Shown in pieces: positions 1 to 31,132 of a stretch of 64,000 nt of DNA. The translations under genes were made by a program, and so were the position numbers. The notes beneath the pieces are model-generated. The model had not been told where the DNA came from and did no database searches. It saw only the letters and a list, made by a program, of their open reading frames with translations. This DNA comes from Bradyrhizobium guangxiense (GTDB taxonomy: Bacteria; Pseudomonadota; Alphaproteobacteria; Rhizobiales; Xanthobacteraceae). The stretch's first letter is position 1; each line of letters opens with the position of its first letter. The DNA lies in the NCBI RefSeq assembly GCF_004114915.1, contig NZ_CP022219.1, positions 6,664,501-6,728,500 of the forward strand, in the 5' to 3' direction.

Positions 1-380
1 AACTGCAGAGCCGTGCCCGCGAATATCTCGAGCAGCAGGAAGCCGAGATCGAAGCGAAGCGCAAGGAGCTCGGTGTCGAGGACGCCGTCAAGGAGGTGCC
101 CGGCGTCACCTCCAAGATGCTGGTGAAGCTCGGCGAGAACGACATCAAGACGGTCGAAGACCTCGCGGGCTGCGCCACCGACGATCTGGTCGGCTGGACC
201 GAGCGCAAGGAAGGCGGCGAGCAGACCAAATTCCCGGGCGCCCTCGACGGCATCGATATCTCCCGCGACGATGCCGAAGCGATGATCATGCAGGCCCGCG
301 TCAAGGCCGGCTGGATCACCGAGGCCGATCTCGCCAAGCCGGCCGAGGAGGCCGAGGCGACCGAAGATCAGCCGGCTTAA
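1..380 (+). CDS. nusA: Transcription termination/antitermination protein NusA, C-terminal fragment
   Basis: The frame is open from the left window edge, so only about the last 125 residues are visible. The piece matches the alphaproteobacterial NusA tail: a helix-hairpin-helix-like acidic repeat (VPGVTSKMLVKLGE, then EDLAGCATDDLVGW) followed by a Glu/Ala-rich end. NusA binds RNA polymerase and controls pausing, termination and antitermination. The genes that follow (ylxR, infB, rbfA, truB, rpsO, pnp) are its usual operon partners, which strongly supports the call. The S1 and KH domains would lie upstream of the window. Confidence 0.93.
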   Translation, partial: LQSRAREYLEQQEAEIEAKRKELGVEDAVKEVPGVTSKMLVKLGENDIKTVEDLAGCATDDLVGWTERKEGGEQTKFPGALDGIDISRDDAEAMIMQARVKAGWITEADLAKPAEEAEATEDQPA

Positions 381-403
381 GGGTAACGGAGGATGTCGCC
401 CGG

Positions 404-1087
404 ATGCTCGCCAGCGTTGACAACGAACTTGACCATGGACCGCGGACCGAAAGGTCCGCGACCATGCGCATGTGCGCGGTCAGCCGCGAGGTCCGGCCGA
501 TCGACGAGCTGATCCGCTTCGTCATTTCGCCGCAAGGCGACGTGGTTCCAGATCTCAAGCGCAAGCTGCCCGGGCGCGGCATGTGGCTCACGGCCTCCCG
601 CGGGGTGGTTGCGGAAGCCGTGCGGCGTCACCAATTTAGCAAGGCCTTCAAGCGCGAGCTGCGCACCCCTCAGACGCTTCCTGCCGACATCGAGGCGCTC
701 CTGGTTCGGAGCGTGACGGAAGCCCTTGGGATCGCCGCCAAGGCCGGCCAGGTCGCGGCCGGCTTCGGCAAGGTCGAAAGCGCCCTTCGGGAAGGCACGG
801 TCGAGGTCCTGATCCACGCCAGCGACGGGTCCGCGGACGGAATCCGCAAATTGGACATGCTGGCGCGTCAAAATGCCGGAAATCGCGGCGCCAAGCCGCA
901 GATTCCCGTCGTCACCGCGCTGAAATCGATAGAATTGGATTTGGCACTGACCCGGTCAAATGTGATACATGCTGCCCTGCTCGCGGGCCCGGCGAGCAAG
1001 TCATTCCTGTCACGTAGCCAGATGCTGGTCCGATACCGGATGGCGGACGCTGACAAGACTGCCGAAGAGCCCGGCCAGGATTTCTGA
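404..1087 (+). CDS. YlxR (DUF448)/L7Ae-like two-domain RNA-binding protein
   Basis: 227 residues, 23 bases after nusA and before infB, the classic ylxR position. Residues about 20-95 form the YlxR/DUF448 domain (RMCAVSREV near the start, then LPGRGMWL). Residues about 100-190 look like an L7Ae/L30e-type RNA-binding fold (ALGIAAKAGQVAAGFGKVE, then VLIHASDGS). The two-domain form is common in alphaproteobacteria; small Gram-positive YlxR proteins have only the first half. YlxR proteins bind RNA, and in Bacillus modulate RNase P; the role here is inferred. The start is uncertain: ATG at 464 gives a shorter protein that still holds both domains. Confidence 0.88.
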   Translation: MLASVDNELDHGPRTERSATMRMCAVSREVRPIDELIRFVISPQGDVVPDLKRKLPGRGMWLTASRGVVAEAVRRHQFSKAFKRELRTPQTLPADIEALLVRSVTEALGIAAKAGQVAAGFGKVESALREGTVEVLIHASDGSADGIRKLDMLARQNAGNRGAKPQIPVVTALKSIELDLALTRSNVIHAALLAGPASKSFLSRSQMLVRYRMADADKTAEEPGQDF

Positions 1088-26836: not shown

Positions 26837-27598
26837 ATGGATCGGCCGGGCGAAACCACGCATTTTGGCTTCAGGGACGTCCCCCTCGGGGACAAGCAGA
26901 CGCTGGTGAACGACGTGTTTCACAGCGTGGCGTCGCGCTATGATCTGATGAACGACCTGATGTCCGGTGGCCTGCACCGGGTCTGGAAGGACATCATGAT
27001 CACCGCGCTCGACCCGCCGAGGAGCGACCGGCCGTTCGCGCTGCTCGACGTCGCCGGCGGCACCGGCGACATCTCGTTCCGTGCCGCCAAGGCCGCAGGC
27101 GCAGGCTTCCATGCCACCGTCTGCGACATCAACGCCGACATGCTGGCGGTGGGGCGCGAGCGCGCCGTGAAGCGGCATCTCGAAACCCAGGTCGATTTCG
27201 TCGAAGGCAATGCCGAAGCGCTCGCCTTCGCCGACCGCAGCTTCGACGCCTATACGATCGCTTTCGGCATTCGCAACGTGCCGCAGATCGACCTTGCGCT
27301 GCGCGAGGCCTATCGCGTGCTGAAGCCCGGCAGCCGCTTCCTCTGCCTGGAATTCTCCACCGTCGAGATGCCCGGGCTCGACAAGCTCTATGATCTGTTC
27401 TCGTTCAAGGTGACCCCGCCGCTCGGACGCATGGTCACGGGCGACGCCGAATCCTACCAATATCTCGTCGAATCGATCCGCAAGTTTCCGAAGCCTGCCG
27501 CCTTTGCCGACATGATCCGCGACGCCGGCTTTTCCCGCGTCAGCTGGCAGACACTCTCCGGCGGCATCGTCGCACTGCATTCGGGCTGGCGTTTGTGA
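26837..27598 (+). CDS. ubiE: Ubiquinone/menaquinone C-methyltransferase UbiE
   Basis: 253 residues. It methylates the ring in ubiquinone synthesis with S-adenosylmethionine. The UbiE signature is [29 protein letters not shown] motif I is [13 protein letters not shown], and the second family signature is [22 protein letters not shown]. The C-terminus [13 protein letters not shown] is typical. It overlaps ubiB by 4 bases (GTGA), so the two are translationally coupled. Confidence 0.97.
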
Positions 27599-29169
27599 TC
27601 TCTGCCTTCACCCACATTGCGCGCCTGATTCGCGCCGCGTTCGTGTTTGCCCGCGAGGGCGTGTTCGGCTCGGTCGATCCGAGCCTGGTGCCGCCGCCGG
27701 GACAGCTCGCGCTGAAGCTGGCGCGCCTCGTCGAACGGCGCGGCGCCAAGCACGGCCCGCGGATATCGCGCGCGCTGACGCGGATGGGCCCCGCCTATCT
27801 CAAGCTCGGACAATTCCTGGCCACGCGTCCCGACGTCGTCGGCGTCATCATGGCGCGAGACCTCGAAAGCCTGCAGGCCCGCCTGCCGCCGTTTTCGCAG
27901 GAGGAAGCCGAGGCCGCAATCGCGATATCGCTGGAGCGGCCGCTGAAGGACATCTTCGTGAACTTCGGCCCGCCGGTGGCGGCGGCCTCGATCGCGCAGG
28001 TGCATCGCGGCGAGGTGTTGCGCAACGGCATCCGCAAGTCGGTCGCGGTCAAGGTGCTTCGGCCGAACGTCGCTGCCCGCTTCCGCCGCGATCTCTCCGA
28101 CTTCTTCTTCGTCGCACACAAGGCCGAAGCCTATTCGGCGGAGGCGCGACGCCTGCGCCTGATCGAGGTCATCAACACCATGTCGCGTTCGGTCGCCATG
28201 GAGATGGACCTGCGGCTGGAGGCGGCCGCGCTGTCGGAGATGGCGGAGAACACGCGCGACGATCCCGATTTCCGCGTGCCTGCAGTCGACTGGGACCGCA
28301 CCACGCACAACGTGCTGACGATGGAGTGGATCGACGGCATCGCGCTGAACGACCACAAGCGCCTGGAAGAGGCGCAGGTCGACCTGCCCGATCTCGGCCG
28401 CAAGGTGATTCAGAGCTTTTTGCGGCACGCGCTGCGCGACGGCTTCTTCCATGCCGACATGCATCCGGGCAACCTGTTCCTCGATGACGCCGGCCGCCTG
28501 GTCGCGGTCGATTTCGGCATCATGGGCCGGCTCGGCATGAAGGAGCGGCGCTTCCTCGCCGAAATCCTGCTCGGCTTCATCACCCGCGATTATCGCCGCG
28601 TTGCCGAGGTGCATTTCGAGGCGGGCTACGTGCCCGCGCATCATTCGGTCGAGAATTTCGCGCAAGCCATCCGTGCCATCGGCGAGCCGATTCACAACCG
28701 CACGGCGGAAGAGATCTCGATGGCGCGGCTCTTGACGCTGCTGCTCGAGGTCACCGGCCTGTTCGACATGACGACGCGGCCGGAGCTGATCCTGCTCCAA
28801 AAGACCATGGTCGTGGTCGAGGGCGTGGCGCGTGGCTTCGACCCCCGGCTCGACATCTGGAAGGTGGCCGACCCCGTGGTGCGCGAATGGATCGAGCGCA
28901 ATCTGGGTCCGATCGGCCGGGTGCAGGGCGCGCTTGCCGGGACCGGGGACATCGCACGCGTGCTGATGCGCATGCCGGAGATCGCCGAGCGGTCCGTGAA
29001 GGTGCTCGAGCAGCTCGAGACCATGACGCGGGAGGGCATCAGGCTGTCGCCGGAGAGCATCGCCGCGATGGGCCGCAGCGAGGGCCGCAAGAATCGCTGG
29101 CGCACCGTGGCACTCTGGATCATCGCCGCCACCTTCATCGGAATCCTGATCGCCGTCCGGAATTTATGA
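27595..29169 (+). CDS. ubiB: Ubiquinone biosynthesis protein UbiB
   Basis: 524 residues, starting with GTG inside the ubiE stop region. UbiB is a membrane-anchored atypical kinase (ADCK/ABC1 family) needed for coenzyme Q assembly. Family features are the KxGQ motif in [15 protein letters not shown], the Ala-rich loop [23 protein letters not shown], the [10 protein letters not shown] catalytic loop and the VAVDFGIMG metal site. A C-terminal transmembrane helix ([17 protein letters not shown]) anchors it. The stop codon lies inside the first operator palindrome of coaBC. Confidence 0.96.
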
Positions 29170-29184
29170 TTGCACTGCAATCAT
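29166..29184. promoter_or_regulatory. Operator 1 upstream of coaBC (perfect 8-3-8 palindrome)
   Basis: ATGATTGC-ACT-GCAATCAT, perfect arms, overlapping the ubiB stop codon. It also covers TATGAT (29165-29170), a good match to a -10 box, although no matching -35 is evident. Half-sites differ from operator 2 by one base. Distance from centre to centre of the two operators is 23 bases, about two helical turns. Confidence 0.75.
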
Positions 29185-29188
29185 TCGG

Positions 29189-29207
29189 ATGATAGCATCG
29201 CTATCAT
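29189..29207. promoter_or_regulatory. Operator 2 upstream of coaBC (perfect 8-3-8 palindrome)
   Basis: ATGATAGC-ATC-GCTATCAT, perfect arms, ending 18 bases before the coaBC ATG and just upstream of its Shine-Dalgarno GGAGG (29216-29220). Tandem short dyads of this size are typical binding sites of ribbon-helix-helix antitoxins; the CoaBC protein itself begins with such a domain. Confidence 0.75.
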
Positions 29208-29225
29208 TCCGTGCTGGAGGGCGTC

Positions 29226-30677
29226 ATGGCTAGCCTGACCATCCGCAAGCTCGACGAGGGCGTCAAAACATATTTGCGGCTGCGCTCGGCCAAGAACCAC
29301 AGGTCGGTCGAGGAGGAGGTCCGGGTCATCCTGCGGGAGCTGATCGAGGGCCGCGAGGAGCCGCTGACGCCGTTTGCGGTGCCGCCGACGCCATCCGCCA
29401 GTGCGACGCCGCAGCGCACCGCGGCCGTGCCCGAGGCCAGCGTCACCCTCATCATCGGCGGCGGCATCGCAGCCTATAAATCACTCGACCTGATCCGAAG
29501 GCTGAAGGAGCGCCGTATCGAGGTCCGCTGCGTGCTGACCAAAGCGGCACAGCAATTCGTCACCCCGCTAGCGGCGAGCGCGCTGTCCCACGAGCGTGTC
29601 TATACCGACCTGTTCGATCCCCAGAGCGAGTTCGACGCCGGGCACATTCGCCTCGCGCGCGACTGCGACCTGATCGTGGTGGCGCCGGCCACCGCCGATT
29701 TGATGGCGAAGATGGCAAATGGCCACGCCGACGATCTCGCCAGCGCCATCCTGCTCGCGACCAACCGCAAGGTGCTGCTGGCGCCGGCGATGAATCCACT
29801 GATGTGGAACAATGCGGCGACACGCCGCAATGTCAGCGCGCTGCAGCGCGACGGCGTGGCGCTGATCGGCCCCAACTCCGGCGAGATGGCGGAAGCGGGT
29901 GAGGCCGGGGTCGGCCGCATGTCCGAAGCGATCGAGATCGCCAATGCCGCCGAGCGGCTGCTGCGGCCGCCGGTGCCGAAGCCGCTGGCCGGCAAGCGCG
30001 TGCTGATCACCGCCGGCCCCACGCATGAGCCGATCGATCCGGTGCGCTATATCGCCAATCGCTCCTCCGGCAAGCAGGGCTTTGCCATTGCCGCCGCCGC
30101 GCAGGCCGCCGGCGCCGATGTGATTCTGGTGAGCGGGCCGGTCGACCTCGATGACCCCGCCGGCGTGACCGTGAAGCACGTCGAATCGGCCCGGCAGATG
30201 CTGGAGCAGGTGCAGGCTGCGCTTCCCGCCGACATCGCGATCTTCGCCGCCGCCGTCGCCGATTGGCGCGTCGCCAACGAAGGTGAGCAGAAGCTGAAGA
30301 AGACCTCTGCCGGCATGCCGCCGCTGCAGCTGGTCGAGACCCCCGACATTCTCGCAACGATCTCCAGGCTGACCGATAAGCGCCCGCCGCTGGTGATCGG
30401 CTTTGCCGCCGAGACCGAGCACCTCATCGACAACGCCAAGTCCAAGCTTGCCCGCAAGGGCTGCGACTGGATCGTCGCCAACGACGTCTCCCCCGCCACC
30501 GGCGTAATGGGCGGCGACCGCAACACCGTGCATCTGATCAGCCGCAAGAATGGTGGGAAGGACGGTGAGATTACCGTTGATTCCTGGCCGGTGATGACCA
30601 AGGAACAGGTCGCGATCGAACTGGTCGCGCATGTCGCAAAGAGCGTGAGCGGCAAAGCCCTGGAGCCGGCATCTTGA
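29226..30677 (+). CDS. coaBC: CoaBC (phosphopantothenoylcysteine synthetase/decarboxylase) fused to an N-terminal FitA-like ribbon-helix-helix domain
   Basis: 483 residues from ATG 29226, with GGAGG 5 bases upstream; the GTG at 29211 is rejected. Residues 1-45 ([20 protein letters not shown], then [14 protein letters not shown]) match FitA/VapB-type antitoxins. A Pro/Ala linker runs to about 75. CoaC (decarboxylase, FMN) follows: [16 protein letters not shown], His in [22 protein letters not shown], and PAMNPLMW. The canonical active-site Cys (E. coli ACGDIGPGRM) appears replaced ([10 protein letters not shown]). CoaB (synthetase, CTP) has [20 protein letters not shown] and Lys in EQKLKK. The pair makes 4'-phosphopantetheine for coenzyme A. 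It sits between ubiB and dut, and two operators precede it. Confidence 0.95.
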
Positions 30678-31132
30678 GCACGAAGATCAGCGTCGAACTG
30701 CAGCAACTGGCTCATGCCGACGGCCTGCCGCTGCCGGCCTATCAGACCACGGAGGCCGCCGGGCTCGATTTGATGGCTGCGGTGCCGGACAGCGAGCCGT
30801 TGACGCTCGCGCCCGGCCAATATGCGCTGGTGCCGACGGGGCTCGCGATCGCACTGCCGGCCGGGCACGAGGCGCAGGTGCGGCCGCGCTCGGGACTCGC
30901 GGCCAAGCACGGCGTCACCGTGCTGAACTCGCCGGGCACGATCGACGCCGACTATCGCGGCGAGATCAAGGTGATCCTGATCAATCACGGCGCGGCACCG
31001 TTCGTGATCAAGCGCGGCGAGCGCATCGCCCAGATGGTGATCGCGCCCGTGGTGCAGGCCACGCTGGTTCCCGTCGCCACATTGTCGACCACCGATCGCG
31101 GCGCCGGCGGCTTCGGCTCGACCGGCCGCTAA
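30674..31132 (+). CDS. dut: Deoxyuridine 5'-triphosphate nucleotidohydrolase (dUTPase)
   Basis: 152 residues. It hydrolyses dUTP to dUMP, keeping uracil out of DNA and supplying thymidylate synthesis. The five trimeric dUTPase motifs are present: [46 protein letters not shown], and the C-terminal [11 protein letters not shown]. The likely start is TTG 30674, overlapping the coaBC stop by 4 bases. The coaBC-dut order is widespread in proteobacteria. Confidence 0.96.

Follow-up and report, generated by a model that had tools for sequence, protein, structure and literature searches.

The coenzyme A biosynthesis enzyme CoaBC of Bradyrhizobium and many of its relatives bears at its N-terminus a ribbon-helix-helix (RHH) domain that belongs to the FitA antitoxin family, and it is very probably a regulator of its own synthesis. 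The reading as a whole, in which CoaBC is both an enzyme and the repressor of its own gene, with an RHH domain derived from a fitAB operon upstream of coaBC, appears to us highly likely. Candidate operators were found immediately upstream of the gene. They follow the domain across genomes, and related sites occur upstream of toxin-antitoxin (TA) pairs that precede unfused coaBC genes.

The coaBC locus

The window, that is, the whole analysed stretch of 64,000 nucleotides of Bradyrhizobium guangxiense DNA, contains coaBC at positions 29226-30677, with the ATG at 29226 and a product of 483 residues. The features of the locus are:

27595..29169, plus strand: ubiB-like gene, named by eye; its stop codon (29167-29169) lies inside dyad 1
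29166..29184, no strand: candidate operator dyad 1, ATGATTGC-ACT-GCAATCAT, exact and conserved in relatives; boxes TGATTGCA (29167-29174) and TGCAATCA (29176-29183)
29189..29207, no strand: candidate operator dyad 2, ATGATAGC-ATC-GCTATCAT, conserved in relatives; boxes TGATAGCA (29190-29197) and CGCTATCA (29199-29206), the latter with one mismatch to TGCNATCA
29216..29221, plus strand: Shine-Dalgarno-like GGAGGG, read directly from the sequence
29226..29351, plus strand: FitA-like RHH domain, residues 1-42 (PF22513 match)
29352..29435, plus strand: Pro/Ala-rich variable linker, residues 43-70 (dN/dS, pLDDT)
29436..30677, plus strand: catalytic part, CoaC (PF02441) and CoaB (PF04127), residues 71-483 and stop codon (profile matches)
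30674..31132, plus strand: dut, dUTPase (PF00692, E = 2.8e-35), overlapping the coaBC stop codon

The two perfect 8-3-8 dyads reported in the initial annotation are indeed present, with a gap of 4 bases, centres 23 bases apart, and the second dyad ending 18 bases before the ATG. They had been described by their half-sites; the dyads stand, whereas the conserved unit is rather the 8-bp box TGATNGCA, and not only the 19-bp dyad. A TATGAT -10-like box had been proposed within dyad 1, but the consensus promoter scan gave no such site, and neither sigma-70-like nor terminator-like sites were observed at 29050-29300.

No PIN-domain gene was seen next to coaBC, as had been noted: the ubiB-like gene precedes it and dut lies on its 3' side. 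Considered as a type II TA locus, the region has operator-like inverted boxes upstream of its own gene, as far as can be judged from sequence, and no toxin gene was seen beside coaBC. The PIN toxin of genome G192, considered below, has no relatives in the window's genome at E 1e-20.

The boxes appear to be nearly private to coaBC. The pattern ATGATWGCNNNGCWATCAT, with at most two mismatches, occurs at eight places in the 8.2-Mb genome, namely the two dyads (exact) and six sites with 2 mismatches; the reversed control occurs at none. We also compared the positions of the 17-bp dyad TGATNGCANTGCNATCA with those of the CoaBC matches in 60 genomes. Exact copies were found at 22 places in 21 of the 60 genomes, and 20 of these 22 sites are situated just upstream of a fused coaBC, one copy in each of 20 of the 36 same-genus genomes. 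The remaining two (G034:C86 and G042:C128) are away from coaBC. Reversed TGATNGCANTGCNATCA occurs nowhere in the 60 genomes. The exact 17-bp dyad is missing in 16 of the 36 same-genus genomes, and those of them whose loci were read show other arrangements of the boxes. The window's genome has one 1-mismatch site beyond coaBC, at C1:3514369.

An antitoxin-like domain on a complete enzyme

Residues 2-38 of CoaBC match the FitA-like RHH profile PF22513 (E = 7.9e-16, 58.2 bits against a curated cut-off of 27), and the profile search supports the earlier reading of the N-terminus as a FitA/VapB-like RHH. The enzyme behind it is a full CoaBC, again as first described (TIGR00521, 385 bits against a cut-off of 220), with complete CoaC and CoaB domains by profile matches. 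Among solved structures, gonococcal FitA (2bsq, 2h1o) is nearest to the RHH in sequence, in a weak match (E about 0.09). Structure prediction, proposed initially as a check, yields two helices (residues 11-24 and 28-40) with pLDDT of about 80; the ribbon strand of such a domain would form in the dimer. In the linker (residues 43-68) pLDDT is under 50. Fold comparison of residues 68-477, a range that begins after the RHH, gave only relatives of the CoaBC core among the matches listed.

Judging by pairwise dN/dS (ratio of means over pairs, 23 Bradyrhizobium-type sequences), purifying selection acts on the RHH (0.147) almost as strongly as on the catalytic part of the enzyme (0.124), which is not the case for the linker (0.582). 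In an alignment of 39 fused proteins M1, R7, A22, S27, E29 and R33 are invariant. The apparent purifying selection on the extension speaks for its expression. No other PF22513 match was observed in the window's genome at E 1e-3 among the 150 of 244 candidates scored.

In 35 of the 36 same-genus genomes (the window's own included) the CoaBC match reaches back to residue 1 or 2 of the window's protein; in the 36th, a contig end truncates CoaBC. No CoaBC match begins before residue 43 in the 24 genomes from other families, and in one of these (G049) only a C-terminal piece of CoaBC was found. The RHH-CoaBC fusion is present in Bradyrhizobium, Rhodopseudomonas, Afipia, Nitrobacter, Pseudolabrys, Phyllobacterium, Mesorhizobium, Zhengella and Nitratireductor. 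CoaBC without the RHH is found in Microvirga, Methylobacterium, Rhizobium, Ensifer, Kaistia and Mesorhizobium denitrificans. Residues 1-60 match 1685 proteins of the protein database at E 1e-3, and at least 120 of these, all the matches listed, carry both PF22513 and PF02441. On a tree of 93 CoaBC rows the presence of the RHH requires six changes, at least three of them on well-supported branches.

Candidate operators follow the domain

We analysed the 110 bases before the start codon in 138 coaBC loci, comprising 87 fused and 48 unfused genes (85 and 47 distinct sequences, respectively), with three loci omitted: L031 (frameshift), L045 (contig end) and L136 (no start found). The unfused set takes in one HTH-fused locus (L133) and one toxin-linked locus (L128). 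The exact box TGATNGCA, in either orientation, is present in 82 of the 85 fused upstream regions and in 0 of the 47 unfused ones (Fisher p = 1e-32, uncorrected for kinship); as background, it occurs in 59 of the 4414 tiles taken from other parts of the fused loci. The initial annotation had proposed comparing upstream regions for conserved sites, and in this comparison the boxes are kept with the extension and absent without it. After clustering at 90% identity, boxes are found in 34 of 37 fused regions (39 fused rows, 2 skipped) and in 0 of 43 without extension or toxin. All 3 of the independent contrasts located on supported branches show a joint change of boxes and domain, but this number is too small for significance (sign test p = 0.25).

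The three fused regions without an exact box are L024, L026 and L028. When one mismatch is allowed, a looser count in which a TGATATCA site scores twice, at least two matches are present in 84 of the 85 fused regions and at most one in every unfused region. Exact boxes that neighbour each other most often lie 9 apart in facing orientation (48) or 14 apart and back to back (25), and the sum of the two spacings gives the distance of 23 between the centres of the window dyads. L028, which encodes a fused RHH-CoaBC, has no box even at one mismatch, the sole such case in the 85.

Toxin-antitoxin pairs upstream of coaBC

In f16, a family of the same order, a PIN toxin gene lies directly upstream of unfused coaBC in 6 of 28 genomes (E 1e-12), and a seventh genome, G216, has a remnant of one there. 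A PIN toxin gene also precedes coaBC in G069, of family f35. Toxin-linked coaBC is confined to f16 plus this one f35 case in the genomes examined. Kaistia granuli groups among the f16 genomes in the CoaBC tree, and two f16 genomes, G240 and G239, have RHH-CoaBC with boxes.

In G192, G238 and G254 a PF22513 antitoxin precedes the coaBC-linked toxin, and the TA pair is situated between a ubiB-like gene (identified by eye) and coaBC. In G235 the upstream gene is not ubiB (by eye). A script that sought RHH antitoxins before 24 PIN genes recognised six. Boxes of the form TGA[TC]NGCA are found upstream of 4/4 RHH antitoxins linked to coaBC (exact TGATNGCA in two) and upstream of 1/2 not next to coaBC. 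G254 carries TGATAGCATCGCTATCG, one base from dyad 2. In G216 (L150, bases 321-660, minus strand) the 3' part of the toxin gene remains (PIN E = 0.007, below the cut-off) and is preceded by TGATTGCA-type boxes in two facing pairs, all of this before the unfused coaBC; no antitoxin was seen among ORFs of at least 50 residues. At L169 (G243) and L173 (G244) the gene before the linked PIN toxin has no RHH by eye and keeps a tail like that of the linked antitoxins; no boxes were observed upstream.

Compared with the linked antitoxins, the RHH of the window has 69% identity in G192, 55% in G238 and 52% in G254; five other fused RHHs share 50-69% with it, and one unlinked FitA shares 36%. The early guess of a domesticated antitoxin gains evidence from these TA pairs. 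We infer that the simplest path would begin with a fitAB operon before coaBC, the toxin then being lost and the antitoxin fused to the enzyme, while the operator stayed in place.

It is possible, though in our view unlikely, that the RHH and its operator were recruited from elsewhere and that the linked fitAB pairs are independent insertions, which would be compatible with autoregulation. The tree offers this origin some room: in addition to the six changes of the RHH state, at least three of them on supported branches, the seven toxin-linked rows need seven changes and cluster no more than shuffled labels, so that the linkage may have arisen more than once. Linked toxins are also restricted to f16 and the single f35 case, and an RHH of 42 residues is too short for a phylogeny of its own. 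On the other hand, recruitment from elsewhere fits poorly with the position of the pair between the ubiB-like gene and coaBC in three genomes, with the toxin remnant and TGATTGCA boxes retained before the unfused coaBC of G216, and with the 69% identity of the window RHH to the linked antitoxin of G192. The intact TA pair, the decayed toxin and the fusion all survive in relatives, which suggests how an antitoxin may become the regulatory domain of an essential enzyme.

Possible mechanism and alternatives

In the proposed autoregulation, RHH domains of neighbouring CoaBC subunits would pair and bind the TGATNGCA boxes between ubiB and coaBC. Once there is enough CoaBC, transcription of coaBC, and probably also of dut, would be limited. 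Repression is suggested by the placement of the boxes between the end of ubiB and the ribosome-binding site. In FitAB the toxin FitB tethers FitA to the operator: it stays off the DNA and stabilises the complex that holds the antitoxin dimers (PMC3920265). The oligomeric CoaBC core could replace the toxin in this role and hold several RHH dimers on the array of boxes. In mycobacteria CoaBC forms a dodecamer with CoaC at its core, and CoA thioesters act as inhibitors of its CoaB (PMC7794376). Twelve RHH arms on such a dodecamer might form up to six RHH dimers, enough for the array. We infer the oligomeric state of the present CoaBC, its binding to the boxes, the repression and the order of the evolutionary events, and a CoA-related signal for release is speculation. 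If the proposed autoregulation is true, coenzyme A synthesis is under transcriptional self-control at the CoaBC step, and the question arises which metabolite of the pathway, if any, makes CoaBC release its operator.

The palindromes might instead act in the mRNA, as leader hairpins of coaBC affecting attenuation, translation or stability, with the RHH unrelated to them. Indeed, the dyad region has a strong predicted RNA fold (z = -4.3), which is expected of palindromes anyway, and facing exact boxes at spacing 9 occur in 48 of the 85 fused regions. However, 7 of the 85 have only direct repeats at this spacing, and these cannot pair as that hairpin. Leader hairpins with no relation to the RHH also sit badly with the distribution of exact boxes (82/85 with the RHH, 0/47 without it) and with the related boxes before fitA genes. 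Moreover, the scan gave no terminator-like site, and no Rfam match to the dyad region exceeds the gathering score, the single match being far below it. We therefore consider action in the mRNA very unlikely. Equally improbable, in our estimate, is that another regulator binds the boxes in trans and that the RHH of CoaBC is structural or vestigial. The survey of regulators, which covered FitA-like RHH proteins (150 of the 244 PF22513 candidates scored), leaves some space for this, but the one FitA-like RHH it found in the genome is CoaBC itself. A structural or vestigial role is further at odds with the constraint on the RHH, nearly that of the enzyme, with the invariance of R7 in 39 sequences and with the joint change of boxes and domain in all three supported contrasts.

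Relation to known systems

Autoregulation by CoaBC itself, the preferred reading, has analogues. FitAB and VapBC share with it the RHH family PF22513 and related boxes before the fitA genes. The gonococcal fitAB operator contains TGATAGCA-like repeats. The difference is that no toxin is present here and CoaBC replaces the toxin-binding tail of the antitoxin. In the FitAB-DNA structure each repeat half has 8 positions, of which the protein contacts 6, in agreement with a box of 8 bp; in the same account VapBC29 binds its own promoter, and VapBC1 and VapBC27 do not (PMC6118392).

RHH enzymes that repress their own genes are known, and the kind itself is therefore not new: PutA is an RHH enzyme and an autogenous repressor (PMC5293562). 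The likeness is that in both a flavoenzyme with two activities bears an RHH at its N-terminus. The window CoaBC has such a domain on a complete enzyme and, at the level of DNA sequence, candidate operators at its own gene. PutA differs in being a trifunctional, catabolic flavoenzyme of proline utilization that answers to proline and flavin reduction, whereas the RHH of CoaBC belongs to the FitA antitoxin family and fitA-toxin pairs precede coaBC in relatives. With other bacterial CoaBC (Dfp) proteins it shares complete CoaC and CoaB domains; 6tgv, the sole full-length solved CoaBC among the matches listed, aligns from its residue 9, which leaves no room for an RHH. BirA and NadR are biosynthetic cofactor proteins that also repress transcription, through an HTH domain and with known ligands. 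They differ from CoaBC in having an HTH rather than an RHH and are not known to be antitoxin-derived. The initial annotation knew of no described fusion of this sort, and our search, which covered the open literature, likewise found no paper on a DNA-binding or antitoxin-derived CoaBC.

Other N-terminal domains on CoaBC

In G097 (f16; L133) CoaBC has an N-terminal Cro/CI-type HTH (PF01381, E = 1.3e-6), and 11 database proteins match this N-terminus. The HTH joined CoaBC independently of the RHH. Upstream of this gene (L133, 1241-1278) the GGATATATCC palindrome occurs twice, at a distance of 19 bases, and the second copy ends 6 bases short of the ATG. A third N-terminal domain, of about 65 residues, was found on CoaBC of G237 (L203) and G241 (L204), and 34 database proteins match it. 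At E 0.1 Pfam gave no match to it. AlphaFold models it as helical, though poorly (block pLDDT 38-63 for residues 1-70), and we do not claim it as an HTH. In G237 TAGGATAAATCCTA stands before the coaBC start. The upstream palindromes of G097 and G237 are candidate sites read by eye.

The repeated gain of domains at the N-terminal end suggests that self-control of CoaBC is favoured here. A tentative extension, which we would rather doubt than accept, makes CoaBC of the Hyphomicrobiales a TA-derived, metabolite-sensing autorepressor: loss of the toxin would have captured RHH and operator, occupancy of CoaB by CoA thioesters or substrates would switch DNA binding, and strong selection for self-control would have led related lineages to capture one or two other DNA-binding domains (the Cro/CI HTH and the small helical domain).

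A short GreA-like ORF (by eye) lies before coaBC at L133 (G097) and L228 (G240); both genomes have a fused DNA-binding domain.
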